This document shows, in pieces, positions 3,122 through 60,335 of a stretch of 64,000 nt of DNA; within the stretch, counting starts at the first letter, position 1, and the number at the start of each line of letters is the position of its first letter. Location: assembly GCA_019637295.1 (NCBI GenBank), contig JAHBVX010000004.1, forward strand, positions 496,001 through 560,000. The letters are read 5' to 3'. The notes under the pieces were generated by a model, which worked only from the letters and a program-made list of their open reading frames with translations, did not search any database and had not been told where the DNA came from. Source of the DNA: Polyangiaceae bacterium (GTDB taxonomy: Bacteria; Myxococcota_A; Polyangia; Polyangiales; Polyangiaceae). A program made the position numbers and the translations under genes.

Positions 3122-5371
3122 TCAGGGCGGCGGCGAGAAGCCGCTGTGGTGGGTCCCATCCTCGAACACCCAGAGCCGCTGGTCGACGGGGAGGGGCCCT
3201 TGGAGCTGCACCTGCTTACCGCCGGGAAAGCGGACGCTGATCGTGTCGACGCTGCTCACCGCTCCCAGACCGAAGTGCAGCGTGAGCGAGTCTTGTCCGC
3301 CCTTGCCGTTGCCCCCGGACACCTGCCGCAGCCACTGCTTGCCCCCCGCCTGGACCAACACCTGGGCACCGATGCCCGACCGGTTCGAGCCAGCGTTCCC
3401 GATCACGCGCACTTGCAGGTACTTCCCCTTGGCCCCGGGCGCCAGCGTGTTGCGAAACAGCGACGTGGCAAACAGGTCCGGGTCCCCGTCGTTGTCGAAG
3501 TCGGCGGAGGCAGCGCCCCAGCCGTTGGTGGTAGTGATGCCGGCGCGGTAGGCATCGAGGCGAAACGTACCGTCGCCGTTGCCCCAGTAGAAGTCCGTGG
3601 GGCGACCGTCGTACACCGCGGTGATGGCCAAGTCCAAGACGCCGTCCTGATCGAAGTCCGCGAGCACCGGGACCGAGTGGGTCTCCTGAAAGCGCAGCCC
3701 TGCCCCCCCGAAGGGCGTCTCCCAGGCTCCCGCCTTGTCCGTGAACATCCCGGCCCCGTCGTTGAGCAAGATCTGAGTCTTGTTGGAGAAGTGGAAGAAG
3801 CGCGGGTGCGCGAGGTTGGCGGCGACGAGATCCAGATCCCCGTCGTTGTCGAGATCGCCCCACACTGCTCCGATGGTGTGACCGAAATAGCCGAAGGGGC
3901 TCATCACCCCGGCGGCTCCGCGCTGAGCAGCCTGCTCGAGGAACGTGCCGTCGCCCTGGTTCACGTACAGCTGATTGCGCTGCAGCCGGTAGTTGTTCAC
4001 GAACAGGTCGACGTCGCCGTCCCCGTCCATGTCTGCGGGCGCGACCCCACGGCTGGCGAGCCGGATGGTGCCGAAGCCGTGGCTTCCGGTCCACTCTTCG
4101 AACACCCCGCCGCCCTGGTTGCGAAACACCTGGTCGAGGTAGAAGGTCTCCTTGCCCCAACAGATGAAGTTGGCCTGATACAGATCGAGCAGCCCATCCT
4201 GATCCACATCCACCCAGGCCGCCGCGGCGGTGGGGGTGTGGACGTTGGCGGCGTCGCCACAGTCTTCGTAGCTCTGAAGGTCGTTGATGGTCGAAGCCGC
4301 GGTGACGTCGCTGAAGGTGCCGTCACAGTTCGAGCGCAGGAGCGCATCGGGACTGGCCGGGGACTCGGAGAAGAGGAACAGGTCCAAGCAGCCGTCGTTG
4401 TCGAAATCGCCGAACACACCCCCGGTGGCGCTGACCGGCGACGCCCCCACGCCAGAGCTCGCCGTCACGTCCACGAACGCGCCCTGGTCGTTGCGATACA
4501 GCTTCCCGTCCACGAGCACGTCGTCCCAGCCGTCGTGATTGTAGTCACCCCACGACACGTGGCCTCCGGTGGGGCCCGCCACCGGTTGAAAGAGCTTGGC
4601 CTCCGGCGCGACCTGCTCGGTGTACTCCACCAGCAGCCGCACCAGGAAATTGCGCTGAAACGGGAAGGAGACGCCGTCGTAGTAGCCTGGGGCCTCGGGC
4701 AGGTTGAACGCCGACGAACACGCAGTGAACGGCTCGCAGCTCGCTGCCGCCGACTCGTCGTAGGCGAACACCGGCGCGGTCGCGCTGGCAGCGAGGTGCG
4801 CGACGTAGACGAGGCCCGGGTGTTCAAGCGTAACCGGCGCTGGCAACGCGTAGCTGGTCCACTCGCCCGAGGTCACGTCCCCCGCGCAGCGAGTACCGAC
4901 CCACAGCGGATCTTTCTTCCAGAAATCGAAGCCGTTGTAGCCAAAGTCTGGGTAGAGGCCCGCCTCGAGCTCGGCGTCGGGCGTCGCCTGCGGGTCGAGG
5001 TTGCTCCACCGGACGCGAAAGCCGTGGACCTTGGCGGGGTGTTCGAGCGTGAAGCGCACGGCCTCGTACAGGGGGACCTCGGCGAGCACGTGGGTCTGCC
5101 CGTCCACGGTGATCTGTGCGCTGCTCTGCCGGATGTCCGAGTACGCCGTGCCGTCGTCATAGGCGAGCTCCGTCAATCCAAGAGGCAGCTCCGCTCCCGC
5201 GCTACCGCACGCCGGGACCGCCGTCTCCGCGTCGAGCCCCGAGTCGGACCCATCCGCGCCGGCGTCCGACGCGGGCCCAGTCCCAGCCCGCGTCTCGTCG
5301 GCCCCACAGGCGAACGGCGAGAGCGCAAGCGCGACGCCCGCTCCGCCGAGCCACCACGACAGCCTCCGCAT
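3122..5371 (-). CDS. FG-GAP/VCBS repeat lipoprotein with ASPIC/UnbV domain
   Basis: This is a 749-residue CRTAC1-like protein. The start at 5371 places a lipoprotein signal (LALSPFAC) at the N terminus; the frame continues upstream to 5452 without a better start. After an N-terminal beta-rich segment come at least five Asp-rich FG-GAP/VCBS repeats of the form D-D/N-G-D-x-D-L, such as DFDNDGCLDLFLFSE and DMDGDGDVDLFVNN. These are predicted to form a calcium-binding beta-propeller. The C terminus is an ASPIC/UnbV domain. It is probably a surface adhesion or binding protein. It is divergent from the metallopeptidase-like lipoprotein at 5451. Confidence 0.85.
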   Translation of the reverse strand: MRRLSWWLGGAGVALALSPFACGADETRAGTGPASDAGADGSDSGLDAETAVPACGSAGAELPLGLTELAYDDGTAYSDIRQSSAQITVDGQTHVLAEVPLYEAVRFTLEHPAKVHGFRVRWSNLDPQATPDAELEAGLYPDFGYNGFDFWKKDPLWVGTRCAGDVTSGEWTSYALPAPVTLEHPGLVYVAHLAASATAPVFAYDESAAASCEPFTACSSAFNLPEAPGYYDGVSFPFQRNFLVRLLVEYTEQVAPEAKLFQPVAGPTGGHVSWGDYNHDGWDDVLVDGKLYRNDQGAFVDVTASSGVGASPVSATGGVFGDFDNDGCLDLFLFSESPASPDALLRSNCDGTFSDVTAASTINDLQSYEDCGDAANVHTPTAAAAWVDVDQDGLLDLYQANFICWGKETFYLDQVFRNQGGGVFEEWTGSHGFGTIRLASRGVAPADMDGDGDVDLFVNNYRLQRNQLYVNQGDGTFLEQAAQRGAAGVMSPFGYFGHTIGAVWGDLDNDGDLDLVAANLAHPRFFHFSNKTQILLNDGAGMFTDKAGAWETPFGGAGLRFQETHSVPVLADFDQDGVLDLAITAVYDGRPTDFYWGNGDGTFRLDAYRAGITTTNGWGAASADFDNDGDPDLFATSLFRNTLAPGAKGKYLQVRVIGNAGSNRSGIGAQVLVQAGGKQWLRQVSGGNGKGGQDSLTLHFGLGAVSSVDTISVRFPGGKQVQLQGPLPVDQRLWVFEDGTHHSGFSPPP

Positions 5372-7264: not shown

Positions 7265-8566
7265 TCAGCGAGCGGAGAACTCGGGGCGACGCGGTCGACC
7301 CGAGCGACGCCGACGACCGCGACGAGCTGGATCGCCGCCGAGCTCGCGGCTGGGTGGCGGGGCCGGTGCGGAGCTGACGCGCGCGGGGGCGTCGCCGCGG
7401 ACGAGCGGCGCCGCGGAAGGCGCGACGCCGTGCAGCGCGCCCACCGCGATGGGGCGTCGGATCCAGCGCTCGATGTCCGTCAGCAGCGGGCGCTCGTCCC
7501 GATCGCAGAACGAAATGGCGCTGCCCGAGTGACCGGCGCGGCCGGTGCGACCAATCCGATGCACGTAGCTCTCCGCGACGTTCGGTAGGTCGAAGTTGAT
7601 CACGTGTGAAATCCCGTCCACGTCGATGCCGCGAGCGGCGACGTCCGTCGCGACGAGCACGCGAGTCGTACCCTGGCGGAAGCCGAGCAACGCGGCCTCC
7701 CGCGCGGACTGGGACTTGTTGCCGTGAATGGCCCGGGCGCCGATGCCAGCCTGCTCGAGGTCTCGCACCACCCGATTGGCTCCGTGCTTGGTGCGCGTGA
7801 AGACCAGGGCACGCTCGACGCCCTCGCGCCCGAGCACCTCGCGGAGGGCCTCGCGCTTGTGCGCCTTCTCCACGAACACGACGGTCTGCGCTACCGTCTC
7901 GGCGGTCGTCACGTCCGGACGAACCGAGACGCGAGCCGGCGCCTTCAGCATCTGCGCGATCAGCGCCTCGACGGAGCGGGGCATGGTGGCGGAGAGCAAC
8001 AGGGTCTGTCGCGCGGTGGGCAGCTTGGCGACGATGCGCTTGACGTCATGCACGAAGCCCATGTCCAGCATGCGGTCCGCCTCGTCGAGGACGAAGTGGG
8101 TGACGCCGCCGAGATCCACGAAGCCCTGCTGCATGAGATCGAGCAGACGCCCGGGGCAGGCCACCACGATGTCGGGGCGCGCGGACAGGGCGCGCTCCTG
8201 CGGGCGCTGTCCGACACCGCCGTAGATCACGGCGTGGCTGATGCGCACGTGCCGGCCGTAGGCGGCGATGCGATCCGCGATCTGGGCGGCGAGCTCGCGA
8301 GTGGGCGTCAGGATCAAGGCGCGGATGCGGCCGGTTCCGCGCTGGGCCGACAGGTGGTGCAGCAGCGGCAGCACGAACGCGGCGGTCTTGCCGGTGCCCG
8401 TCTGGGCGCAGGCCACCACGTCACGCCCCGCGACGGCGGGCGGCACGACCTGGAGTTGGACGGGGGTCGGGATGGTGTATCCCTCGTCGGCGACGGCCCG
8501 CACGAGGGCGGGGTTCAAGCCGAACTGGGAGAAGGCGGACTCGTCCGCAGGGGTCGTTTGGGTCAC
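7265..8566 (-). CDS. rhlE: DEAD-box RNA helicase, RhlE-like
   Basis: The conserved core carries the Q motif, AQTGTGKT (motif I), PTRELAAQ (Ia), DEAD (II), SAT (III), and the helicase C motifs including ARGIDVDGI and HRIGRTGRAG. The protein ends in a basic Arg-rich tail, typical of RhlE-type helicases acting in ribosome assembly and RNA turnover. I favour the GTG at 8566 because it gives the usual short N terminus and has a GA-rich sequence upstream. The frame is open to 8689 with another ATG at 8617. The gene stands alone, divergent from the arsR operon. Confidence 0.9.
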   Translation of the reverse strand: MTQTTPADESAFSQFGLNPALVRAVADEGYTIPTPVQLQVVPPAVAGRDVVACAQTGTGKTAAFVLPLLHHLSAQRGTGRIRALILTPTRELAAQIADRIAAYGRHVRISHAVIYGGVGQRPQERALSARPDIVVACPGRLLDLMQQGFVDLGGVTHFVLDEADRMLDMGFVHDVKRIVAKLPTARQTLLLSATMPRSVEALIAQMLKAPARVSVRPDVTTAETVAQTVVFVEKAHKREALREVLGREGVERALVFTRTKHGANRVVRDLEQAGIGARAIHGNKSQSAREAALLGFRQGTTRVLVATDVAARGIDVDGISHVINFDLPNVAESYVHRIGRTGRAGHSGSAISFCDRDERPLLTDIERWIRRPIAVGALHGVAPSAAPLVRGDAPARVSSAPAPPPSRELGGDPARRGRRRRSGRPRRPEFSAR

Positions 8567-8773
8567 TGTTTCGATACTCTCTCTCGCGACGACTCCCCGG
8601 ACATCCGGAGGCTGCATCACAGCAGCGTGCGCCGCGTCGCTACGTCTTCCCGGTGGATCGGACCTCGCTCCGTTGTGAGCGAGCGGCAACGATTCTCGCC
8701 GGCCAGCACGTACGCAGCGGAGTCTCTAGCGCAGGAGCCGCTTGGCTGCAACTCGGGGCGCGGGACCGCAGGC

Positions 8774-8802
8774 TTGACAATCAATAAGTGCTAGCTTATG
8801 TA
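8774..8802 (+). promoter_or_regulatory. Sigma-70-type promoter with overlapping inverted repeat (arsR operator)
   Basis: TTGACA (8774-8779) and TATGTA (8797-8802) are separated by 17 bp. ATAAG (8784-8788) and CTTAT (8795-8799) form an inverted repeat in the spacer running into the -10 box, with the palindrome GCTAGC inside. A repressor bound here would block RNA polymerase. Six bases separate the -10 box from the ATG at 8809, so the transcript is probably leaderless. Confidence 0.75.
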
Positions 8803-8808
8803 TTGGGC

Positions 8809-9138
8809 ATGCACGGCGCGGCCACGGCGGAAAACAAGGTCTTCCAGGCGTTGGCCGATCCCAGCAGGCGGGCGATCTTCGAGTCCCTCACCCGCGGAGA
8901 GGCGGCGGTGAAGGACCTCACTGCACGCTTCCACATCTCGCAGCCGGCGGTCTCACAGCACCTCGCAGCGCTGAAGGACGCGGGCCTGGTCAACGGGCGA
9001 CGCGAGGGGCGTTGCGTCTACTACCGCGTGCAGCCGCGGGGGATGAAGCCGCTCATCGACTGGATCGCGCACTACCGTGCGTTCTGGACGGAGCACGTCG
9101 TTCGCCTGGAGAGGCTGCTGGAGAACATGGACGAATGA
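8809..9138 (+). CDS. ArsR-family winged-helix repressor
   Basis: This 109-residue regulator has the family's winged helix-turn-helix: FQALADPSRRAIFESLT, then FHISQPAVSQHLAALKDAGL and the wing GRREGRCVYYRV. The metal-binding ELCVC-type cysteines are absent, so it is not a classical arsenic or zinc sensor. It matches the subgroup paired with SRPBCC/AHSA1 genes. The ATG at 8809 is preferred over the GTG at 8788, which lies inside the promoter. It overlaps the next gene by ATGA and probably represses its own operon through the inverted repeat at 8784-8799. Confidence 0.88.
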   Translation: MHGAATAENKVFQALADPSRRAIFESLTRGEAAVKDLTARFHISQPAVSQHLAALKDAGLVNGRREGRCVYYRVQPRGMKPLIDWIAHYRAFWTEHVVRLERLLENMDE

Positions 9139-16694: not shown

Positions 16695-17747
16695 GTGGGC
16701 CGCAAGCTGAGAGTGCTCGTGGTGGACGACTCGGCGTTCATGCGCAGTGCCGTCTCTCGCATGCTCTCGTCCGACGAGCGCTTCGACGTGGTGGGGCAGG
16801 CCGCCGACGGCAACGCGGCGGTGAAGCTCGCCGCCGAGCTGTCGCCCGACGTCATCACGATGGACTTCAACATGCCGGGGCTCAATGGGGCCGACGCCAC
16901 GCGCGCCATCTTGTCGGCGCGCGCGGTGCCCATCGTGATGCTCTCCGCCCACACCAAGGAGGGCGCCTCGGCCACGGTCGAAGCGCTCGCCGCGGGCGCG
17001 CTGGATTTCGTCGAGAAACCTGCCGGCGAGGTCAGCGTGAACCTCAGCAGCATCCGCGACGAGCTGACGTCGAAGCTCGTCTCCGCTGCCGGGGCCAACG
17101 TGGCGCCGGCCCTGGCGCCCCCGTCGCTGGCCGCCTCGGAGCCGTCCTCGCGGCCAGCGCGAGCGCACAAACCCATGCCGGCGGGCCTGCGCGTCGTCGT
17201 CATCGCGTCGTCGACGGGCGGACCGGCGGCCCTGGTGCAGCTGGTGCCCACCCTCGCGCTCGAGCGTCACGCCGTGCTGGTCGTCGTGCAGCACTTGGCG
17301 GCCGGGTTCACCGGCGCGCTGGCGGAGCAGCTCGCAGAGCGCGCGGGATTTCCCATCCATGAAGCGACGGACGGGGAGGAGCTGCGCGCGGGACGAGGCC
17401 TGGTCGCCCCCGGCGGCAGCCATCTGCTGATCGAGCGCAGCGGCAGGGTCACCCTGTCGAGCGCCGAGCCGGTCCACGGCGTCAGGCCCGCAGCGGACGT
17501 CACGCTGAAGAGCGCGGCCCTGGCCTATGGTCCGCGGACGGTGGGCGTGGTGCTCACGGGCATGGGTCGAGACGGCGCCACGGGGCTAGCGGCGGTCAAG
17601 GCCGCCGGCGGTCGCACGATCGCTCAGGACCGCGCCTCCTCGACGGTGTATGGGATGCCCAAGGCCGCCGCCGAGCTCGGCGTAGTGGACGATGTGCTGC
17701 CGCTCTACCGCATCGGTCGGGCCGTCAGCAAACTGGTCAGCGATTGA
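16695..17747 (+). CDS. cheB: CheB-like chemotaxis response regulator methylesterase
   Basis: This 350-residue protein has a receiver domain (VLVVDDSAFMRSAVSRML, phosphoacceptor in TMDFNMPGLNG) followed by an Ala/Pro linker and a CheB catalytic domain. The domain holds IASSTGGPAAL with the catalytic Ser, VVVQHL with the His, and LTGMGRDGATG with the Asp. CheB removes methyl groups from chemoreceptor glutamates. No CheR or receptor gene is nearby, so the partner system lies elsewhere. The GTG at 16695 is chosen because the receiver begins immediately after it. Confidence 0.9.
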   Translation: MGRKLRVLVVDDSAFMRSAVSRMLSSDERFDVVGQAADGNAAVKLAAELSPDVITMDFNMPGLNGADATRAILSARAVPIVMLSAHTKEGASATVEALAAGALDFVEKPAGEVSVNLSSIRDELTSKLVSAAGANVAPALAPPSLAASEPSSRPARAHKPMPAGLRVVVIASSTGGPAALVQLVPTLALERHAVLVVVQHLAAGFTGALAEQLAERAGFPIHEATDGEELRAGRGLVAPGGSHLLIERSGRVTLSSAEPVHGVRPAADVTLKSAALAYGPRTVGVVLTGMGRDGATGLAAVKAAGGRTIAQDRASSTVYGMPKAAAELGVVDDVLPLYRIGRAVSKLVSD

Positions 17748-17754
17748 AGCAAAC

Positions 17755-19665
17755 GTGACAGACGCGAGTGCCGAGAGCAGTCACCCATTCGCGGCGACCT
17801 ACCGGGAGCGCGAGCGGCAGGCGAGCGCCGCGGCGGAGAGCATCGCGAGCCGCTCCCGCTTGGTGTCCAATTTGCGCGGTCTGGCCTTCGGAGCCTTCGC
17901 CATCGGCCTGTTGGTGGCGATCTTCGGCAGCTCGGGTCGAGTGCCGGCGATCATATCCGCGGTGGGCGCCCTGGCCTTCGCCGCGCTGCTCGTGGTTCAC
18001 CAGCGCATTCTGGATCGGGAGGACGAAGCGCGGCGACGGGCGCGCGTCAACCGCGACGCCTGGCTGCGCGTGAGCGGGCGCTTCCGCGAGCTGCCCCAGA
18101 CTGGCGCCGAGGTGAAGCCCCCAGCGCACCCCTACGCCGACGATCTGGACGTGCTCGGCCCCGGGTCCTTGTTTCAACGCTTGTGCACCGCGCACACTCC
18201 GTACGGCCGCCGCGCGTTGGCCCAGTGGCTGACCACACCGCAGGCTGGGCCGGTGATCGCAGAACGCCAGCGCGCCGTGCAGGAGCTCGCGCCGCTCCTC
18301 GAAGAGCGACAGCGACTCGAAGCGCTCGCGCTCTTCGCGGTGGACGCGCTGGGGTCCGACGGCAAGAAGCGCGCGAAGATCGCTCCGGATCCGGAGCCCT
18401 TCGTCAACTGGGCCAAGAGCCCACCCGTGCTGAGCCAGCGGCCGGTCGTGGTCTGGGGCAGCCGCATCCTACCGCCCGTGACGCTCGCCACCCTGGTGGC
18501 CTGGACGGCCCTGGGCACGCCCGCCTACTGGTTCACCATCCCGCTCTTGCTCCAGTTCGCGCTGCTCCACCGAGCCAGAGAGGCGACCCTACGCGCCTTC
18601 GAGGCGGTGGCCACCAGCGAAGGCGCCTTGGCACGCTACGGCGCGATGCTGGAGGTGCTCGAGAAGCTCGACGCGAAGTCGGGCTTCGTGGCGCGGCTCA
18701 AGGCGGACGTCTCCAAAGGCGGCGCTCCTCCGTCGGAAGCCATGCGCGCCCTCGGCCGACGTGTGGGGTGGTTCGAGCTGCGCCACAACGGGCTGGTCCA
18801 CCCCTTCGCCAACGCGCTGCTGCTCTGGGACGTACACTGCACGCTGAGTCTGGAGGCGTGGCAGGTGCGGAGCGGCCAGGCCTGTCAGCTCTGGCTGTTG
18901 TCCCTTGGTGAGCTGGAGGCGCTCTGCTCACTCGCCGCGCTCGCACACGACGAGCCCGAGTACGCCTTCCCGACCGTGTCGCCGGAGACTCGCTTCGAAG
19001 CGGAGGCGCTCGGTCACCCCCTGCTCCCGTCGGATTCACGGGTGACGAACGACGTCACATTGGCACGCGGGGGCGTGGCGTTGCTCGTGACTGGCTCGAA
19101 CATGAGCGGCAAGAGCACGCTGCTCAGGGCCATCGGACTCGCGGCCGCCATGGCTCAGGCGGGGGGTCCGGTGTGCGCCAAGGCGCTGGTCTGTAGCCGC
19201 TTCGCCATCCGCACGAGCATTCGCGTGAGCGACTCGCTCGAGGCCGGGGTGAGCCACTTCTACGCGGAGGTAGGCAAGCTCAAGGCAGTGATGGATGCGA
19301 CCTCGGGAGAGCTACCCGTGCTCTTCCTGCTCGACGAGATCCTGCACGGCACGAACTCCCGAGAGCGTCAGATCGGGGCTCGTTGGGTGCTCGCCGAACT
19401 GCTTGGGCGCGGCGCCACGGGCGCCATCTCGACGCACGACATGGAGCTGTGTCGCCTCCCGGATGAGCTGATGACCCTCGTCACGCTGGTCCACTTCCGG
19501 GAGAGCGTGAGGGACGGCAAGATGACGTTCGACTACCGGGCTCGACCCGGTCCCGTCACCTCGGGCAACGCGCTGCGCCTGATGCAGCTCGTGGGACTGG
19601 ACGTGCCCCTCGACGAGCCCATCAGCCGAGATCGAAACGAACTCGCACGCGATCCTGAAGCTTGA
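17755..19665 (+). CDS. Membrane-anchored MutS-like ATPase
   Basis: This 636-residue protein has two hydrophobic helices near residues 43-85, a middle lever region, and a C-terminal MutS domain V ATPase. Walker A is GSNMSGKST, Walker B is LFLLDEILHGTNSRER, and STHDMEL follows. The mismatch-recognition domain of true MutS is absent. Similar transmembrane MutS-like proteins exist in several phyla, and their role is unclear. The gene ends 44 bp inside the convergent yceI-like gene. Confidence 0.8.
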   Translation: MTDASAESSHPFAATYRERERQASAAAESIASRSRLVSNLRGLAFGAFAIGLLVAIFGSSGRVPAIISAVGALAFAALLVVHQRILDREDEARRRARVNRDAWLRVSGRFRELPQTGAEVKPPAHPYADDLDVLGPGSLFQRLCTAHTPYGRRALAQWLTTPQAGPVIAERQRAVQELAPLLEERQRLEALALFAVDALGSDGKKRAKIAPDPEPFVNWAKSPPVLSQRPVVVWGSRILPPVTLATLVAWTALGTPAYWFTIPLLLQFALLHRAREATLRAFEAVATSEGALARYGAMLEVLEKLDAKSGFVARLKADVSKGGAPPSEAMRALGRRVGWFELRHNGLVHPFANALLLWDVHCTLSLEAWQVRSGQACQLWLLSLGELEALCSLAALAHDEPEYAFPTVSPETRFEAEALGHPLLPSDSRVTNDVTLARGGVALLVTGSNMSGKSTLLRAIGLAAAMAQAGGPVCAKALVCSRFAIRTSIRVSDSLEAGVSHFYAEVGKLKAVMDATSGELPVLFLLDEILHGTNSRERQIGARWVLAELLGRGATGAISTHDMELCRLPDELMTLVTLVHFRESVRDGKMTFDYRARPGPVTSGNALRLMQLVGLDVPLDEPISRDRNELARDPEA

Positions 19666-20122
19666 TCGCGCCGAGCAGCGCCTTGTAGGGCGCGATCCCG
19701 AAGCGGCTCGGGATCAGCTCGACCTCACCGAGGTAGCGACCATCCTCGCGCTGCGCCGAGAACTCGACCGGCTGACGCTGGCCACGCAGCGTGAGCGTGC
19801 CGGCGATGCGGACGACATCGCCCTCGGGCTTGCCCGTTCCCTCGAAGCGAACCTCCGGGTAGCGCGACGTCTGTAGCACCTTGTCGCGAATGTTCTGCCG
19901 AATCTCGCCGCGATCACCGTCCGACAGCGCGCCGACTGGGTTACCGTCCACCAGGGCCGTCACCACGGTCAGGCTCGCGGGGTCGAACGTGGCTTCGATC
20001 GAGGTGCCGTCGTGGCCGATCTCGAAGCGCTCGACCTTCAGCCGTAGGTCGTGAGCAAGCCTCGACAAGAGCCCGTCTTTGTAGGTCGAGACCTCGACCG
20101 TACCCGTGAGTCGCTGGTTCAT
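19622..20122 (-). CDS. YceI-like family protein
   Basis: This 166-residue protein has YceI-like features: SRLAHDLRLKVERFEI near the N terminus, RYPEVRFEGTG in the middle, and IAGTLTLRGQRQPVEF. YceI proteins are lipocalin-like barrels that bind polyisoprenoids or other amphiphiles. No export signal is evident, so this member may be cytoplasmic. The ATG at 20122 is chosen over the upstream frame start at 20152. Its 3' end overlaps the MutS-like gene on the other strand. Confidence 0.75.
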   Translation of the reverse strand: MNQRLTGTVEVSTYKDGLLSRLAHDLRLKVERFEIGHDGTSIEATFDPASLTVVTALVDGNPVGALSDGDRGEIRQNIRDKVLQTSRYPEVRFEGTGKPEGDVVRIAGTLTLRGQRQPVEFSAQREDGRYLGEVELIPSRFGIAPYKALLGAIKLQDRVRVRFDLG

Positions 20123-20423: not shown

Positions 20424-21323
20424 GTGAGCGATTTCGACGAAAAGACGCGCGTGACGCAGGTCGTGCAGCGACCCGGTCCAGAGGAGGGGGACACCGGGAA
20501 CGACTGCGTGGTCGTCATCTACACCAAGGAGCCTGGGCTGCTCGGCAAGCGCTTCGTGCTGGATACGAACCCGACGCGCATCGGGCGTGGCGCGGACAAC
20601 GCGATCGTGCTCGAGGGAGACTCCGTCTCTCGCCGTCATGCCCACCTCGAGCGCCGCCTGGGTCGCTGGTACGTGGTCGACGATGGCTCGACCAACGGCA
20701 CCTATCTGAACGAGGAGCAAGTCGCGAAGGAAGCGCTGCTGAACAACGCGGACCGAGTCAAGGTGGGCCCCACCATCTTGAAGTACCTGTCGGGGGCAGA
20801 CGCAGAGGCGAAGTACCACGAAGAAATCTATCGCATGACGATCGTGGATGGCCTGACTCAGATCCACAACAAGCGGTACCTGTTCGAGAGCCTCGAGGGC
20901 GAGGTCAGTCGCGCGCGTCGCCACGAGCGCCCGCTGTCGGTCATCATGTTCGACATCGATTTCTTCAAGCCCATCAACGACCAGTACGGCCACCTGGCGG
21001 GGGACTACGTGCTGCGCGAGTTGGCGAAGGTGGTGCAGGGGCGCATCCGCCGCGACGAGACCTTCGCGCGCTACGGCGGCGAGGAGTTCGTGGTCGTGCT
21101 GCCGGAGACCCCGCTCGAGGGCGCCATCGCCCTCGCTGAGACCCTGCGCGCGCGCATCGCGGAGCACGCCTTCGTGTTCCAGGGTGAGCGGATGGCCGTC
21201 ACGATCAGCATGGGTTGCGCGTTGCTTTCCCCGGACGACAAGTCCGCCACGGATCTGATCCAGCGCGCGGACGAGCGGCTGTACGACGCCAAGCGCGGCG
21301 GCCGCAACCGCGTGTGCTATTGA
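20424..21323 (+). CDS. FHA-GGDEF diguanylate cyclase
   Basis: This 299-residue protein has an FHA phosphothreonine-binding domain at about 45-115 (RIGRGADNAIVL, VSRRHAHLE, DGSTNGTYLN). A GGDEF domain follows at about 135-295, with the active-site motif RYGGEEFVVVLPE. The product-inhibition I-site is RxxE rather than RxxD, so feedback control may be weak. It should make c-di-GMP in response to a Ser/Thr kinase signal. It is first in a tight forward run, 7 bp ahead of the aminotransferase. Confidence 0.9.
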   Translation: MSDFDEKTRVTQVVQRPGPEEGDTGNDCVVVIYTKEPGLLGKRFVLDTNPTRIGRGADNAIVLEGDSVSRRHAHLERRLGRWYVVDDGSTNGTYLNEEQVAKEALLNNADRVKVGPTILKYLSGADAEAKYHEEIYRMTIVDGLTQIHNKRYLFESLEGEVSRARRHERPLSVIMFDIDFFKPINDQYGHLAGDYVLRELAKVVQGRIRRDETFARYGGEEFVVVLPETPLEGAIALAETLRARIAEHAFVFQGERMAVTISMGCALLSPDDKSATDLIQRADERLYDAKRGGRNRVCY

Positions 21324-21330
21324 CGGCAGC

Positions 21331-22677
21331 GTGAGCTTCTCGGAACTCCCGCCTCCCCCGGAGGTCGAGCCGGGCCAAGATCTGCCCGAGCTGCGCACGC
21401 GCCCCCCCGGCCCGCAGTCGCGGACCTGGCTCCTGCGCCTCTCGCGCACGGCGGCACCGATGGGGCCCGCGCCGGGCTTCGACCCGTTGCGAGGCATCCA
21501 CAGCGAGGCGCGACCGTGGACGATCGTGTACGCGACGGCGAAGGGGTGCAACGTGCTCGACGTGGACGGCAACCGCTACGTCGACCTCGCCGCGGGCTTC
21601 GGCGCGCAGCTGCTGGGACATGCGCACCCTCGCATCCAAAAGGTGATCGAGCTGCAGGCACCGCGCTTGCTCCAAGCGCTCGGTGACCTCCACCCAGCAG
21701 ACGCGACCATCGCGCTGATGGAACGCCTCGCGAAGCTGCATCCGGCGGCGAGCGCCCGGGTGATCCTCGGCCTCACGGGCGCCGACGCCGTGACGGCGGC
21801 GCTGAAGACGGCGATGCTCTGCACCGGGCGCCCGGGCGTGCTCGCCTTCGAGGGCGCCTACCACGGGCTCGGCTACGGGCCGCTGCGCGCCTGCGGCCTG
21901 CGCCCCGGCTATCGCGAGCCCTTCAGCCCTCAGCTTGGCACGCCGGCGCGCTTCCTGCCGTATCCGGCCAGCGCGGACGCGGCCGAGCAGGCCCTCGAGC
22001 GAGCTCGCTTCGAGCTCGCTCGAGGAGACATCGGCGCGCTGCTGTTCGAGCCGATTCTGGGGCGCGGCGGGGTGGTGGTGCCGCCGGAGGGCTTCCTGGC
22101 GGAGGTGTGTGCGATGGCGCGCACAGCTGGCGCGCTGGTCGTCGCGGACGAGATCTGGACCGCCCTCGGCCGAGCGGGCAGTTGGCTCGCGAGCCACGAG
22201 CACGGACCCGATTTGGTCTGTCTGGGCAAGGGGCTCGGTGGTGGGCTGCCCATCAGCGCGTGCATCGGCTCCGACCGCGTGATGAGCGCCTGGCGACGCG
22301 ACCCCGAGGTCGTGCACACCTCCACCTTCTCCGGCGCGCCCCTCAGCGCTGCCACGGCGATCGCGACGCTCGACGTGCTGAAGCGCGATGACCTCGTCGC
22401 CCGCTCGGCGCGGGTCGGCGCCGCCTTTCGCGAGCAGCTCGCCCGTCGCTTCGTCGGGCGCAAGCCGGTTCGAGACGTGCGTGGCAGCGGTCTGATGATC
22501 GGGATCGACTCGAGCGAGCCGGGGTCGGCTTCACGGTGGTGCCGCCGCCTGCTGGAGCGCGGATACATCACCACCACCGGCGGGGGCGACCGTGACGTGT
22601 TGGTGCTGACACCACCCCTCGACATATCCGAGCGCTTGCTGACCGCGTTTTGCGATGCGTTCGACGAGTGCTTGTGA
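21331..22677 (+). CDS. Class III PLP-dependent aminotransferase
   Basis: This 448-residue enzyme has the class III fold: VVADEIWTALGR with the PLP-contacting Asp, LGKGLGGGLPISA with the Schiff-base Lys, and AAGFGAQLLGHAHP in the N-terminal half. Class III enzymes transfer amino groups to terminal aldehydes or ketones. The next two genes could make a fatty aldehyde, so a long-chain aldehyde is a reasonable substrate; that is inference. It starts with a GTG at 21331. Confidence 0.85.
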   Translation: MSFSELPPPPEVEPGQDLPELRTRPPGPQSRTWLLRLSRTAAPMGPAPGFDPLRGIHSEARPWTIVYATAKGCNVLDVDGNRYVDLAAGFGAQLLGHAHPRIQKVIELQAPRLLQALGDLHPADATIALMERLAKLHPAASARVILGLTGADAVTAALKTAMLCTGRPGVLAFEGAYHGLGYGPLRACGLRPGYREPFSPQLGTPARFLPYPASADAAEQALERARFELARGDIGALLFEPILGRGGVVVPPEGFLAEVCAMARTAGALVVADEIWTALGRAGSWLASHEHGPDLVCLGKGLGGGLPISACIGSDRVMSAWRRDPEVVHTSTFSGAPLSAATAIATLDVLKRDDLVARSARVGAAFREQLARRFVGRKPVRDVRGSGLMIGIDSSEPGSASRWCRRLLERGYITTTGGGDRDVLVLTPPLDISERLLTAFCDAFDECL

Positions 22678-22682
22678 CGGCC

Positions 22683-23834
22683 ATGAATCGCGAGGAAATC
22701 CTGAGCCGGAGCGACGCCTTGCACGAGCGCGTGCAGCGTTTCGCCCTGGCGAACGACGGCGACAGCTTCGACGCCATCGCCTGCGACATCGCCCGCTTCC
22801 AGGCCGACGCCATCCCGGGCTATCGACGACTCGCGGACGCGCGGGGGTCGCTGCTCGACGACGCCAGCGCGCTGCCGGCGGTACCGACGGATGCGTTCCG
22901 ACTGACGCGAGTCGCAGTGCACGACTCCGCGGATGACGTCACCCGCTTCGTGAGCAGCGGCACGACCGCCGAGGCCCGGAGCGTGCACGCGCTGCGGCGC
23001 ACGGACACCCTCGAGCGCTTGGCGCTGAGCTGGGGACGCAAGGCGCTCGTTCCACACTGGCCGGCCCGCCGGGTCGTCATCGCGCTGGCTCCCCACCCCG
23101 GGGCGCCAGCGACGTCGTCGCTGGGCTTCATGATGCGCTCCTTCATCGCGTCCCTGGATGGCCGAGCGCTGGCCGCCGACCCCGCCGGCGCCGCATTCGA
23201 CCCCGACTCTTCCGCGCGCTGGCTGGCCTCTCCCCAGGGGCTCGACGCGGAAGGCGTGCGGCGCGCCGCGCTGGTCGCGCTGGAGCGACAGGAACCCCTA
23301 CTCGTGCTGGCCACCTCCTTTGCCCTGGTAGCTCTGCTCGACGGTCTCGGAGGTGAGCGCCTGCGCGCCCCGAAGAACTCGGTCGTGATGCAGACCGGCG
23401 GTTTCAAGGGGCGCACTCGCACGGTGAGCCCTGGCGCGCTCAGCTCGGCCATCGCGCGAGCGTTCGGCATCGACGAGGCGCGCATCGTCGGCGAGTACGG
23501 CATGACCGAGCTGTCCAGTCAGGCGTACGAGGGCACCCTCGCGGATGCGGAGCTCTCGGGTCCCCCCTCGGTCTACCTGCCGCCCCCGTGGCTTCGCATT
23601 CACTCCGTCGACCCGGTTCGGTTGATCCGGTTGCCGCCCGGCGAGGTCGGCCTGGCGCGCTTCGTGGACCTGGCGAACGTCGACAGCGCGGTGTGCATCG
23701 TCACCAAGGATCTGGTGCGCGAGGTCGATGGGGGGGTCGAGCTCATCGGTCGCAGTCCAGGCGCGCCCCTGCGCGGGTGCTCGCTCACGCTCGAGCAATT
23801 GCTGCCCGGTAAGGCGGCGGGAGGCGCCGCGTGA
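22683..23834 (+). CDS. LuxE-like acyl-protein synthetase
   Basis: This 383-residue protein resembles LuxE and related adenylate-forming enzymes. Features include the loop FVSSGTTAEARSV near residue 100, GGFKGRTRTVSP, and the AMP-binding-like GEYGMTELSSQAYEG. LuxE activates a fatty acid as acyl-AMP and passes it to LuxC. The start lies 5 bp after the aminotransferase, and the stop overlaps the GTG of the LuxC-like gene, so the pair is coupled as in lux operons. No luciferase genes are nearby, so light production is not implied. Confidence 0.82.
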   Translation: MNREEILSRSDALHERVQRFALANDGDSFDAIACDIARFQADAIPGYRRLADARGSLLDDASALPAVPTDAFRLTRVAVHDSADDVTRFVSSGTTAEARSVHALRRTDTLERLALSWGRKALVPHWPARRVVIALAPHPGAPATSSLGFMMRSFIASLDGRALAADPAGAAFDPDSSARWLASPQGLDAEGVRRAALVALERQEPLLVLATSFALVALLDGLGGERLRAPKNSVVMQTGGFKGRTRTVSPGALSSAIARAFGIDEARIVGEYGMTELSSQAYEGTLADAELSGPPSVYLPPPWLRIHSVDPVRLIRLPPGEVGLARFVDLANVDSAVCIVTKDLVREVDGGVELIGRSPGAPLRGCSLTLEQLLPGKAAGGAA

Positions 23835-24904
23835 CGGAGGCGAGCGTGCCCCGGATCGCTCGGGTGAGGCGGCTGCTCGACGCCGCGCGCGTGCTGGCCG
23901 ACCCGCGCACCGCGCTCGGCGCGCGTGCTCGCGCCGAGCTCCCCGCCGTCAGCGGTCTGAGTGCCGAGAACGTGGCGCGGGCTCTATCCGAGGTCCTGGA
24001 GGTCGACGCGACGGACGGCGACCTCCAGCGGTTGCTCGCCACCGTCGAGGACTCACCCAGGACCCACGTCCTGCTCGCAGCCAACGTGTTCACGGCGCCA
24101 TTGCGGGCCATTGCGCTCGCCTTGGCGCAGTCACCTCGGGTGGACGTGCGGCCCTCGCGACGTGAACCGCTCTTCACCGAACTGTTGCACGAGGCCAGTC
24201 ACGGCGCGTTTCGCATCGTGAGTGAGCTCGCCCCAGCGCCGGGGGACCACGTCTGGGCCTACGGCAGTGACGAGACGCTCGAGTCGGTGCGCGGCGAGCT
24301 GCCCGCCGGCGTGGTCTTTCACGGCCACGGCAGCGGGTTCGGCGTGGCGGTACTCGAGCTCGATGACGCAGACGCGGCGCAGGTCACACAGCTGTCGGCG
24401 GCGCTGGCGCGGGACGTCGTCGTGTTCGATCAACGGGGATGCCTGAGTCCGCGCTTGGTGCTCGTCGTCGGCGCAGAAGCGCGAGCACGGCAGTTCGCGA
24501 CCGAGCTCGCGGCGGCGCTCGCTCGACACCACCACGACATTCCGCCCGGCCCGCTCTCGAGCGAAGAGGCGGCGCTGGTGAGCTGGTATCGGGACACCTT
24601 CACCTACGCCGCGGAGGCCTTCCCGGCGGGAAAGGGCGTCGTCGGCTTCTCCCCGGGCGGAGAGCTGACGCTGCCTCCGGTCGGACGCAACGTCCACGTC
24701 GCCCGGCTGCCTGATCCCGTCGCCCCGCTCGAGCCCTGGGCGCGCGCCGTCACCAGTGTCGGGCTCTTCGGCTCCGAGCAACTGCGCGTCCGGCTTGCGG
24801 GCGTGGTTGCGGGCGCGCGCCTGTGCGCCGTGGGCCAGCAACAGCGCCCGCCCCTCGACGGCCCGGTGGACCTGCGCGAGCGCACTCGGCGCGAAGTGCT
24901 GTGA
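23831..24904 (+). CDS. LuxC-like acyl-CoA/acyl-protein reductase
   Basis: This 357-residue protein matches the LuxC aldehyde-dehydrogenase-like family. VVVFDQRGCLSPRLVLV carries the probable catalytic cysteine that holds the acyl group, and VFHGHGSGFGVAVLE resembles the LuxC nucleotide region. It should reduce the acyl group made by the preceding LuxE-like protein to an aldehyde with NADPH. It is shorter than typical LuxC (about 480 residues), with the reduction mainly at the N terminus. It is last in the operon. Confidence 0.8.
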   Translation: MTEASVPRIARVRRLLDAARVLADPRTALGARARAELPAVSGLSAENVARALSEVLEVDATDGDLQRLLATVEDSPRTHVLLAANVFTAPLRAIALALAQSPRVDVRPSRREPLFTELLHEASHGAFRIVSELAPAPGDHVWAYGSDETLESVRGELPAGVVFHGHGSGFGVAVLELDDADAAQVTQLSAALARDVVVFDQRGCLSPRLVLVVGAEARARQFATELAAALARHHHDIPPGPLSSEEAALVSWYRDTFTYAAEAFPAGKGVVGFSPGGELTLPPVGRNVHVARLPDPVAPLEPWARAVTSVGLFGSEQLRVRLAGVVAGARLCAVGQQQRPPLDGPVDLRERTRREVL

Positions 24905-24915
24905 CGCGCTGCCAA

Positions 24916-26250
24916 CTACACTCCGGCGCGGCGCAACAGCCGGGGCGCCTCCCGACGCGCGCTGGCGACCACGCTCTCCGAGTCGAGGGTCAGGAGCTCG
25001 CCGGAGCGGACCACGAAACGTCCGCCCACCAGCACGTGTTCCACGTCACGCGACTGCGCGCCGTACACGAGGGTAGCGATCGGATCGAGCGCCGGTGCCA
25101 GGTGCGCGCCGCTGCGACGAACGACGACCAGATCGGCTGCCTTGCCCGCTTCGACGCTGCCCACCTCCTCGTCGAGGCCGAGGGTGCGCGCGCCGTCGAT
25201 GGTCGCCAGCCGCAGGACGTCCCGCGCTGGCAGCGCGCCGGGGCCCGCCACCCAGCTCGACAACAGCGCCGCGTGGCGCATCTCCAGCCAAGGATCGAGG
25301 TTGTTGTTGCAGGGCGCGCCGTCCGGACCCAGGCCGACCACCACGCCGGCTGCCCGCAGCGCGGCTACTTTGGCTACGCCGCTGCCGAGCTTGAGGTTGG
25401 CGCTGGGGCAGTGCACGACCCGAGTGCCGTCCGCGCCGAGCCGGCGCATCTGGCGCGGCGTGAGCTGGACCCCGTGCGCGATCGACGCCCAGGGTCCGGC
25501 CATGCCCCAGCGGCGAAGGACGTCCACGTCGTCCGCGCCGTGGATCTGCCGCACCGCCGCGCGCTCGCCGGGATGCTCGCTGGCGTGCGTGTGAAAGCGT
25601 CGACCGGGCGCCCGACCTCGCTCGATGGCCTGTCGGACCAGCGCTTCGGAGCAGGACAGGATGAAGCGCGGGATCCAGACGTGATGCGCTCGCCCGCTCG
25701 GGTGGGCCGACCAGAGCGCCTCGAGTTGCTCGGCGCTGCGGATCGAGTCGCGAGTGCTCTCGCGCAAGCGCTTGGGCACTCCCCGCCCGGTGTCCATCAG
25801 GCTCTTGCCTCCGCACACGCGGATCCCGGCGCGCACGCAGGCGTCGAACACCACGTCGTAGTCGTGGACGGAGCCGAGATCCAGGATCGTCGTCGTCCCC
25901 GCGCCGAGCAACTCCACCAGCCCGAGCTCGGCGCTAGCGCGCAACGAGCGCTCGTCGTGAGCGGCCTCGAGCGGCCAGATACGCTCCCGGAGCCAAGCAA
26001 GCAGGGGCAGGTCATCGGCCAGCCCGCGCATCAGCGCCTGGCACAAGTGGACGTGCGCCATCACGAACCCCGGCAGCACGATGCGATCCCGCGCGTCGAT
26101 CACGCGAGCCCCAGCCGGCGCGCGAAACCGGCCCACGCGAACGATCCGCCCGGCCTCGATCCAGACATTGCCCGACAGCACGCGGTCACCAGCGTCGCAG
26201 GTGACGATCGTCGCGCCCTCGAAGATGATCGGCGTCGGCACTGGCTTCAT
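24916..26250 (-). CDS. Amidohydrolase, TRZ/ATZ deaminase-like
   Basis: This 444-residue protein has the metal-dependent hydrolase signature: HVHL after VLPGFVMA, FHTHASEHPGE, SIAHGVQL, and LGPDGAPCNNNLD with the catalytic Asp. The closest group is the MTA/SAH deaminase-guanine deaminase set. It is the last gene of a nucleoside-salvage operon with PNP and cytidine deaminase, so a purine or related base is a likely substrate. The ATG at 26250 overlaps the cytidine deaminase stop. Confidence 0.85.
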   Translation of the reverse strand: MKPVPTPIIFEGATIVTCDAGDRVLSGNVWIEAGRIVRVGRFRAPAGARVIDARDRIVLPGFVMAHVHLCQALMRGLADDLPLLAWLRERIWPLEAAHDERSLRASAELGLVELLGAGTTTILDLGSVHDYDVVFDACVRAGIRVCGGKSLMDTGRGVPKRLRESTRDSIRSAEQLEALWSAHPSGRAHHVWIPRFILSCSEALVRQAIERGRAPGRRFHTHASEHPGERAAVRQIHGADDVDVLRRWGMAGPWASIAHGVQLTPRQMRRLGADGTRVVHCPSANLKLGSGVAKVAALRAAGVVVGLGPDGAPCNNNLDPWLEMRHAALLSSWVAGPGALPARDVLRLATIDGARTLGLDEEVGSVEAGKAADLVVVRRSGAHLAPALDPIATLVYGAQSRDVEHVLVGGRFVVRSGELLTLDSESVVASARREAPRLLRRAGV

Positions 26251-26639
26251 CCCTCGAACGAGAATGCGTAGGGCAAGAGTTCCGAGAGCTGGTGCTGCAC
26301 GCGCCCCGACGGCGTCGCGCAGATGACGACCGCATCCTCGGCGAACTCGCGCAGCACCTGCCGGCAAATGCCGCAGGGCAGCGTCGGCTCCGAGGTGTCC
26401 GTGAACACCGCGACGGCCGAGAGCTCGCGCACGCCGGCGGCTACCATCGCGCCGACGGCCGAACGCTCGGCGCACTGCGTGGCGCCAAAGCTGGCATTCT
26501 CCACGTTGCACCCGACGTACACGGAGCCGTCGCTGCCGAGCAGCGCGGCGCCCACGGCGAACTTCGAGTAAGGGGCGTGCGCGTGGGCGGCAACCGCCTG
26601 TGCGGCGGCCACGAGGCTATCTTCGACGCTGCGATCCAT
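26247..26639 (-). CDS. cdd: Cytidine deaminase
   Basis: This 130-residue enzyme is of the small tetrameric type. Zinc ligands are visible in CAERSA and PCGICRQ, and CNVENASFG is the substrate-binding motif. It converts cytidine and deoxycytidine to uridine forms. The ATG at 26639 lies 4 bp after the PNP stop; a GTG at 26663 inside the PNP gene is less likely. It sits between PNP and the amidohydrolase. Confidence 0.93.
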   Translation of the reverse strand: MDRSVEDSLVAAAQAVAAHAHAPYSKFAVGAALLGSDGSVYVGCNVENASFGATQCAERSAVGAMVAAGVRELSAVAVFTDTSEPTLPCGICRQVLREFAEDAVVICATPSGRVQHQLSELLPYAFSFEG

Positions 26640-26643
26640 GACG

Positions 26644-27477
26644 CTATGCGCTGACGAGCTCACCGGTGAGCTCGACCCAGCGTGACAGGACCGAGACGAA
26701 TCGCGTGTGAGTCTGACGTGCGATCTCCTCGACCTCCGCGTGGTCGAGCAGCGAGTCCGAGAGTCCCGCGGCGAGGTTGGTGATGCAGCTCATGGCGCCC
26801 ACACGCACTCCTCGATGGCGTAGCACCAGGACCTCGACCACGGTGCTCATGCCCACGGCGTCCGCTCCGAGCGTCCGGAGCATCCGAATCTCCGCGGGGG
26901 TCTCGTAGCTCGGGCCGAGCAGCGCCGCGTACACGCCCTCGCGCAGCGGCGCGTCGACTTCGCGCGCAGCGCGTCGCCCGGCCTCACACAGCTGGGCGTC
27001 GTAGGCCGTGGTCATGTCGGGGAAGCGCGGGAACCCTTCGGGATTGGGTCCAATCAGCGGGTTTCGCGCCGTGAGGTTCAGGTGATCGGTGATGAGCATC
27101 AGATCCCCGGGCGAGAGCTGGGCCTGGATGCCCCCGGCCGCGTTGGTGATGAGCACGGCGCGACACCCGATCCGCTGCAGCAGCCTCGCGCCGAAGGTCA
27201 CGCGATCGAGACCATGACCCTCGTACAGGTGCACTCGGCCCTGCAGGCAGGCGACCGGCACGGAGGCCACGCTCCCGAGACACAAGTTGCCGGCGTGCCC
27301 CACCACGCTGGACGTGGGCATGTGGGGGATGGCCGAGTACGGGAGCTTGATCAGCTCGCTCAGCTGGTCCCCGAAGGCGCCCAGCCCGGATCCCAGAATG
27401 ACACCAACGCGGGGAGTCGGCGCGCCGGCCCGGGCGACGGCTCGCTCTGCCTCGTCGAGCTGCTGTTCGAGCTCCAT
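26644..27477 (-). CDS. Purine nucleoside phosphorylase
   Basis: This 277-residue protein is a trimeric-type PNP. Phosphate and base site motifs are GVILGSGLG, HAGNLCLG, LITNAAGGI and LGPSYETPAEIRML, followed by AVGMSTVVEV. It splits purine nucleosides with phosphate to a free base and ribose-1-phosphate. It is first of three overlapping or near-overlapping salvage genes on the minus strand. The ATG at 27477 is preferred; a further in-frame start lies at 27489. Confidence 0.93.
   Translation of the reverse strand: MELEQQLDEAERAVARAGAPTPRVGVILGSGLGAFGDQLSELIKLPYSAIPHMPTSSVVGHAGNLCLGSVASVPVACLQGRVHLYEGHGLDRVTFGARLLQRIGCRAVLITNAAGGIQAQLSPGDLMLITDHLNLTARNPLIGPNPEGFPRFPDMTTAYDAQLCEAGRRAAREVDAPLREGVYAALLGPSYETPAEIRMLRTLGADAVGMSTVVEVLVLRHRGVRVGAMSCITNLAAGLSDSLLDHAEVEEIARQTHTRFVSVLSRWVELTGELVSA

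Positions 27478-59139: not shown

Positions 59140-60335
<1,196 letters not shown>

Follow-up and report, generated by a model that had tools for sequence, protein, structure and literature searches.

Within a 64,000-nucleotide window of Polyangiaceae bacterium (contig JAHBVX010000004.1, positions 496,001 to 560,000 of the forward strand; the window is the whole stretch analyzed, and coordinates are counted from its first letter), positions 20424 to 24904 carry a compact run of four genes encoding an FHA-GGDEF diguanylate cyclase, a class III pyridoxal phosphate (PLP) aminotransferase (AT), a LuxE-like protein, and a LuxC-like protein. With moderate confidence, we read AT, LuxE, and LuxC as one ATP- and NAD(P)H-driven route from a carboxylate to an amine that is co-expressed with the cyclase, which is of the DgcB type. 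The enzymes, their order, and their deep conservation are solid. The substrate is a matter of competing readings, and the fatty amine proposed in a first-pass annotation of the sequence is one of at least three.

A four-gene run joins LuxE and LuxC homologues to an aminotransferase

The genes of the run, and the evidence on which each call is based, are as follows.

20424..21323, + strand: FHA-GGDEF diguanylate cyclase, DgcB-like (Pfam FHA and GGDEF; best solved match, 6hbz)
21331..22677, + strand: class III PLP aminotransferase, AT (Pfam Aminotran_3; column counts; alignments to solved structures)
22683..23834, + strand: LuxE-like acyl-AMP ligase/acyl carrier (Pfam LuxE; profile match to 7xc6 LuxE)
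23831..24904, + strand: LuxC-like acyl-thioester reductase of the aldehyde dehydrogenase (ALDH) fold (Pfam LuxC; profile match to 7xc6 LuxC; fold)

Open reading frame calls and Pfam, in which every gene scored over its cut-off, thus confirmed the run as it had first been annotated. The successive intergenic distances are 7 bp, 5 bp, and −4 bp, the last being a 4-bp GTGA overlap, which bears out the earlier statement that LuxE and LuxC are translationally coupled and preceded by AT at 5 bp; an alternative in-frame TTG start for the LuxE-like frame is possible at 22650. The LuxC-LuxE pair is known as the source of aldehyde for bacterial light production, and the first-pass annotation had also stated that luciferase was absent. 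This holds for the four genes of the operon, the rest of the genome not having been searched for luciferase: where a lux bioluminescence operon has luxA and luxB beside luxC and luxE, the partners here are the diguanylate cyclase and AT.

The arrangement recurs in divergent genomes

A scan for close relatives of the LuxE-like protein over all phyla gave 117 confirmed matches; the best 80 of these 117, whose titles name myxobacterial or older "delta" groups, were fetched and constitute the named loci. For comparison, 20 stretches were chosen by hand in other classes of the phylum. In the 80 named loci, AT lay no more than 400 bp upstream of LuxE in 67 and LuxC no more than 400 bp downstream in 68, with both conditions holding in 59; the contig was cut on the relevant side in 5 and 4 loci, respectively. 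The corresponding figures for the hand-picked loci were 16/20 for AT, 17/20 for LuxC, and 15/20 for both. Stop/start overlaps of 4 bp were frequent across loci, and in one draft assembly (L079) LuxE and LuxC were fused in a single 745-amino-acid frame, which could be an assembly error. Because it recurs in divergent genomes, the AT-LuxE-LuxC arrangement cannot be put down to chance, and the conservation of gene order among relatives that the first-pass annotation had set as a check on its proposal was observed. Sorangium cellulosum (for example So ce26), Polyangium (for example Polyangium fumosum), and Minicystis rosea are among the named carriers of all four genes; in a Sandaracinus record, the triad occurs without FHA-GGDEF.

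To gauge how widely the pair is spread, we also counted homologues of LuxC and LuxE, as distinct from the full triad, in sampled genomes. Of 183 genomes of the order, 171 contained a sequence matching the LuxC protein (E ≤ 1e-3), mostly at a single place, and the LuxC profile matched 27 of 144 genomes within the class at E ≤ 1e-10 (24 from the same order, plus three weak matches in other orders). Over the phylum, the LuxE profile matched 298 of 377 sampled genomes at E ≤ 1e-10. These tallies imply that nearly every genome of the order has the LuxC/LuxE pair, that few genomes of sister orders do, and that the pair is common again in the other classes. Distant LuxC/LuxE matches in two genomes from another order of the class (G366:C226:71745-72506 and G487:C144:8946-9749) may represent a different use of the pair.

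The catalytic residues of LuxC, LuxE, and AT are retained

In the lux system, LuxE activates the acyl group and carries it on a Cys residue, and LuxC reduces the thioester on a Cys of its own. The LuxC-like protein (Pfam LuxC, 76.9 bits against a cut-off of 21) had 7xc6 LuxC as its best match when its profile was compared with solved structures (E = 9e-18). Its catalytic Cys204 aligned with the Cys of 7xc6_A and was invariant in 38 sequences and in 19/19 from the other classes; identity to the window protein ran from 29 to 54% over 37 loci. The predicted model (predicted local distance difference test score [pLDDT], 95.4) placed 7xc6_A first in both Foldseek and VIA-align (Z = 31.3; root mean square deviation [rmsd], 3.1; 341 residues aligned), with other ALDHs at Z ≤ 26.1 in VIA-align. 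By these measures, it is an ALDH-fold enzyme nearest to LuxC and a predicted acyl-thioester reductase.

For the LuxE-like protein, sequence and fold point to different relatives. Pfam LuxE (PF04443) matched at 30.4 bits (cut-off, 24.9), over the C-terminal part; in 14 control genomes, this model gave a match in 1, under the cut-off. The sequence profile led to 7xc6 LuxE (E = 2e-23), the sole solved relative at E ≤ 1, and the GCS of the C-terminal RGCS motif, which contains Cys366, aligned with the GCS of 7xc6_E. We take such a C-terminal, acyl-accepting Cys as the mark of LuxE, and it was invariant in 38/38 sequences and in 20/20 other-class loci. The SGT motif was likewise invariant in the 38 sequences (identity to the window protein, 39 to 57% over 37 loci); in the other classes, position T94 was Thr in 16/20 and Ser in 4. 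The fold ranking of the predicted model (pLDDT, 89.0), in contrast, led to PaaK-like ligases: PaaK2 (Z = 24.8; rmsd, 3.3; 308 residues aligned) and PaaK1 (24.5) were nearest, followed by 2-hydroxyisobutyryl-CoA ligase (23.7), ClxA (22.1), and phenazine biosynthesis protein 3hgv (20.4), with a fatty acid AMP ligase fold at 15.6.

AT (Pfam Aminotran_3, 271.4 bits; identity to the window protein, 43 to 63% over 37 loci) retains the PLP-binding Lys300 together with Asp273, both invariant wherever columns were counted. Aminotransferases of the γ-aminobutyric acid (GABA), ornithine, and acetylornithine types are defined by a Glu/Arg pair that binds the substrate carboxylate, and AT has neither partner. 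Residue 245 was Arg in 38/38 sequences and in 16/16 from other classes, at a position occupied by Glu in GabT (4ffc), PuuE (7jh3), putrescine aminotransferase (4uox), and PigE (4ppm) and by Asp in two racemases. Residue 425, Val in the window protein, corresponds in the alignment to an Arg in 4ffc, 7jh3, and 4uox but was Thr, Val, Gln, or Ile in 38/38 sequences and Ser or Ala in 16/16 from other classes. Five other class III enzymes are encoded in the genome. Among them, ArgD and lysine 6-transaminase have both Glu and Arg; BioA, HemL, and a fifth enzyme, which matches an uncharacterized subfamily, lack the Glu; and position 245 is not Arg in any of the five. Thus, a missing Glu is in itself nothing unusual, three of the five other enzymes lacking it, and it is the fixed Arg245 that is particular to AT. 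We interpret the invariant Arg245 as pointing to an altered site for the donor or acceptor, which is no proof of any given substrate.

The possibility that AT is simply the ArgD, BioA, HemL, or lysine 6-transaminase of the genome was rejected, as these are four other genes, each scoring over its NCBIfam cut-off; with separate enzymes encoded elsewhere, AT is not needed for their jobs. A class III aminotransferase of the ArgD type, which has the usual Glu/Arg pair, lies in the same window at about 59185-60318.

Within Polyangiales, a DgcB-type cyclase accompanies the triad

The first gene of the run encodes a protein with GGDEF (163 bits) and FHA (66.5 bits) domains whose best solved match was 6hbz (E = 8e-55), the full-length Bdellovibrio DgcB (PMC6733907). 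According to that paper, the DgcB tail Thr that follows Glu-Lys docks on the protein's own FHA domain, is a proposed phospho-ligand, and is conserved in homologues, including three of M. xanthus in the authors' alignment (PMC6733907). The operon cyclase has the N-terminal tail DEKTRVTQV, a GGEEF motif, and RRDE at the I-site position, so that the FHA and GGDEF domains, the GG(D/E)EF motif, and the EKT tail of the DgcB type are all present, with differences at tail positions −3 and +3. Residues E6 and T8 of the tail were invariant in 23 aligned FHA-GGDEF sequences. Identity to the window protein was 60 to 82% over 22 loci, a set that differs from those used for the other three proteins in leaving out loci without this gene.

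We scored an FHA-GGDEF neighbor at >250 bits among the 72 loci with AT. In 50, it was the immediate upstream neighbor and had the same orientation; it was 1.8 kb away in one (L036), would lie outside the sequence in 4 whose upstream end is short, and was not found in 17; in most of the adjacent loci, the junction with AT was an overlap or a gap of <100 bp. In L036, a REC-EAL gene (3255-4547), cyclic di-GMP (c-di-GMP) phosphodiesterase-like, sits between FHA-GGDEF and AT, placing an opposing enzyme in the run. Beside the triads of the 20 other-class stretches, we found no FHA-GGDEF gene, two of these stretches (L155 and L156) being short on that side. The c-di-GMP link is therefore a lineage-level addition and not part of the chemistry. 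The suggestion in the first-pass annotation that the cyclase might tie product formation to signaling gains ground within Polyangiales, from the 50 of 72 loci and the REC-EAL gene of L036, and finds no counterpart beside the triad in the 20 other-class stretches.

The leading alternative to such a tie is that the diguanylate cyclase is functionally unrelated to the triad and merely shares its promoter. We do not prefer it but regard it as a real contender, consistent with the 17 loci and the other-class stretches in which no such gene was found; it sits less well with the same-strand adjacency of the 50 loci and their tight junctions, given that other flanking genes are not kept. Further FHA-GGDEF proteins are encoded in the genome, so loss of the operon cyclase could be buffered. 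In a FastTree phylogeny of 23 operon-linked FHA-GGDEF proteins and five in-genome paralogues, the protein of L039 grouped beside the paralogues (0.89), and for this reason we do not claim that the operon-linked proteins form a single orthologous group.

The proposed route and its alternatives

From these observations, we infer the following scheme. LuxE would activate a carboxylic acid with ATP and take the acyl group onto Cys366. LuxC, in complex with LuxE, would accept the acyl group on Cys204 and reduce it with NAD(P)H to the aldehyde, which AT would then convert into a primary amine, binding its amine donor differently from GABA- and acetylornithine-type enzymes. In Polyangiales, the triad would be co-transcribed with the DgcB-type cyclase, which is probably switched on by a Ser/Thr kinase acting through the N-terminal Thr8.

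Several observations weigh against this scheme. The Pfam LuxE match is weak (30 bits, C-terminal part), and the fold ranking of the LuxE model is headed by PaaK and other ligases, with 7xc6_E not among the matches listed. The Pfam LuxC model exceeded its own cut-off in 7 of 14 control genomes; that cut-off is not strict, and we therefore regard the LuxC profile and fold comparisons as the better evidence. N85 and S109 of LuxC, invariant in 38 sequences, are not kept in the other classes, and the altered site of AT clouds the amine donor. The gene order also has exceptions. In the 80 named loci, AT lay further from LuxE in 5 and was absent from the fetched flank in 3, and LuxC lay further in 3 and was not found in 5; in the 20 other-class loci, AT was not found in 3, and LuxC lay further in 1 and was not found in 1. 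What the data show directly is how the genes are ordered, how well they are conserved, which catalytic residues and homologues the proteins have, and how LuxC and LuxE are predicted to fold; co-transcription, the order of the reactions, the aldehyde as the substrate of AT, complex formation, and the kinase switch are inferred.

Of the readings that concern the chemistry itself, the best placed against a fatty amine is that LuxE works as a PaaK- or EhpF-type ligase on an aromatic or other small acid, giving a small amine or building block. Although the gap between the two PaaK folds and the fatty acid AMP ligase (24.8 and 24.5 versus 15.6) speaks for it, we hold this reading to be possible rather than likely: 7xc6 LuxE is the only solved relative by sequence profile, the C-terminal Cys is invariant, and similarity in fold does not determine which substrate is used.

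We think it unlikely that the LuxE-LuxC aldehyde is used elsewhere, for example in ether lipids, with AT serving a separate step. The loci in which AT lies 1.4 to 3.9 kb from LuxE (the 5 of 80 above) or is not found within the fetched flank would fit such a separation, but in the great majority of named and other-class loci the two genes are no more than 400 bp apart, and the Arg245 signature of AT is kept in every sequence counted. Least convincing is a lysine- or ornithine-like logic, in which LuxE and LuxC would reduce an amino acid side-chain carboxylate or a dicarboxylate and AT would add the terminal amine; we consider it improbable, since, although the top NCBIfam scores of AT were to acetylornithine/succinylornithine types (all 25 best rows below the cut-offs), the carboxylate-binding Arg is absent from AT in 38/38 and 16/16 sequences, whereas both Glu and Arg are present in the ArgD and lysine 6-transaminase of this genome.

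The acid-to-aldehyde-to-amine route thus remains our preferred reading. The first-pass annotation had described it as a chain from fatty acid to aldehyde to amine. The three-step logic is strengthened by the occurrence of the triad across classes, the intact catalytic residues, 7xc6 as best relative, and the L079 fusion; the fatty-acid part is not, the LuxE model being nearest to PaaK-type folds. As to the acid, our tentative first choice is a long-chain or hydrophobic one, with a long-chain fatty acid possible; an aromatic or other small acid is a weaker candidate, and an amino acid or dicarboxylate weaker still.

Significance

In our preferred reading, the operon joins LuxC-LuxE carboxylate reduction to transamination. 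In the open-access literature on LuxE/LuxC, we found no description of it, subscription journals being mostly outside the scope of that search. Relatives of LuxC-LuxE are near-universal in the order Polyangiales, in which we know of no light production. There they are tied to an aminotransferase whose active site is altered, and the triad recurs in other classes. Such conservation predicts a conserved amine and puts a natural enzyme set on offer for acid-to-amine conversion, and the DgcB-like cyclase makes a link from a metabolic product to c-di-GMP signaling open to test. As a long shot, most Myxococcota might share a core metabolite, a primary amine and perhaps a lipid one, that a dedicated LuxE-LuxC-AT line produces and whose synthesis in Polyangiales would have come under a kinase-tripped c-di-GMP switch akin to the control of prey entry in Bdellovibrio. 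If so, the amine would mark or serve either prey contact or a lifestyle change. A Bdellovibrio dgcB deletion mutant is reported to be non-predatory apart from rare suppressors (PMC3271064).

Neighboring genes

The genes around the operon are as follows.

19622-20122, upstream of the operon: YceI-like gene (Pfam)
24916-26250, − strand, downstream of LuxC: amidohydrolase (Pfam)
26247-26663, − strand, downstream of the amidohydrolase: cytidine-deaminase-like gene (our own reading)

Flanked by the two opposite-strand genes and by the YceI-like gene upstream, the four + strand genes form a separate run. Further upstream, at 17692-19665, is a gene for a MutS-like protein (MutS_V; MutS_III under the cut-off). 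L034, L036, L039, and L043 also have a relative of it upstream, in the same orientation, and L042 and L046 have one on the opposite strand.

A further fixed partner gene was looked for by neighbor clustering and rejected: no other cluster exceeded 14 of the 100 loci, a set in which many loci were truncated at contig ends. Ten medoids from the 45 listed neighbor clusters belonged to unrelated Pfam families (amine oxidase, kinase, GAF/PEP-utilizer, LpxK, HPPK, and SufBD) or, in four cases, had no Pfam match. An alpha/beta hydrolase (palmitoyl-thioesterase/lipase-like) reminiscent of luxD lies between AT and LuxE in L055 (4578-5789) and L057 (4452-5900), and related genes precede LuxE in L064 and L128; as it was seen in four loci only, we give it little weight. 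In L046, a PemK/MazF-like toxin gene (8267-8860) lies between LuxE and LuxC.

Comparison with known systems

One of the closest known counterparts is the Photobacterium LuxC-LuxE fatty acid reductase (7xc6), which has adjacent genes, provides the best solved sequence relatives of both proteins, and matches the LuxC fold at Z = 31.3. The LuxC-like protein is shorter at both ends, aligning to residues 62 to 450 of the 477-residue Photobacterium chain, and, unlike in the lux operon, AT accompanies LuxC-LuxE and there is neither a luciferase nor a luxD-like gene among the four. AT shares its class III fold family and its catalytic Lys and Asp with PigE, which acts on an aldehyde, and with the GABA, acetylornithine, and putrescine aminotransferases; PigE, GabT, PuuE, and putrescine aminotransferase differ in having Glu at the position of Arg245.

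The cyclase resembles Bdellovibrio DgcB in its FHA-GGDEF architecture and N-terminal EKT tail (PMC6733907). It differs in being tied to a metabolic triad, in having Asp at −3 and Thr at +3 of the tail, where DgcB is reported to be hydrophobic (PMC6733907), and in having RRDE in place of the RSND (RxxD) of DgcB, so its product feedback may differ.

A myxobacterial precedent for the step from thioester to aldehyde to primary amine is myxochelin B, for which two reports describe reductive release by MxcG followed by the action of MxcL, a stand-alone PLP aminotransferase (PMC9611931, PMC3870968). There, a nonribosomal peptide synthetase domain reduces a carrier-bound intermediate, and the genes belong to a siderophore cluster rather than to a widely shared stand-alone unit. 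The same reaction logic underlies engineered routes to amines that combine a carboxylic acid reductase with a transaminase; these are laboratory-built, whereas the LuxE-LuxC operon is natural.

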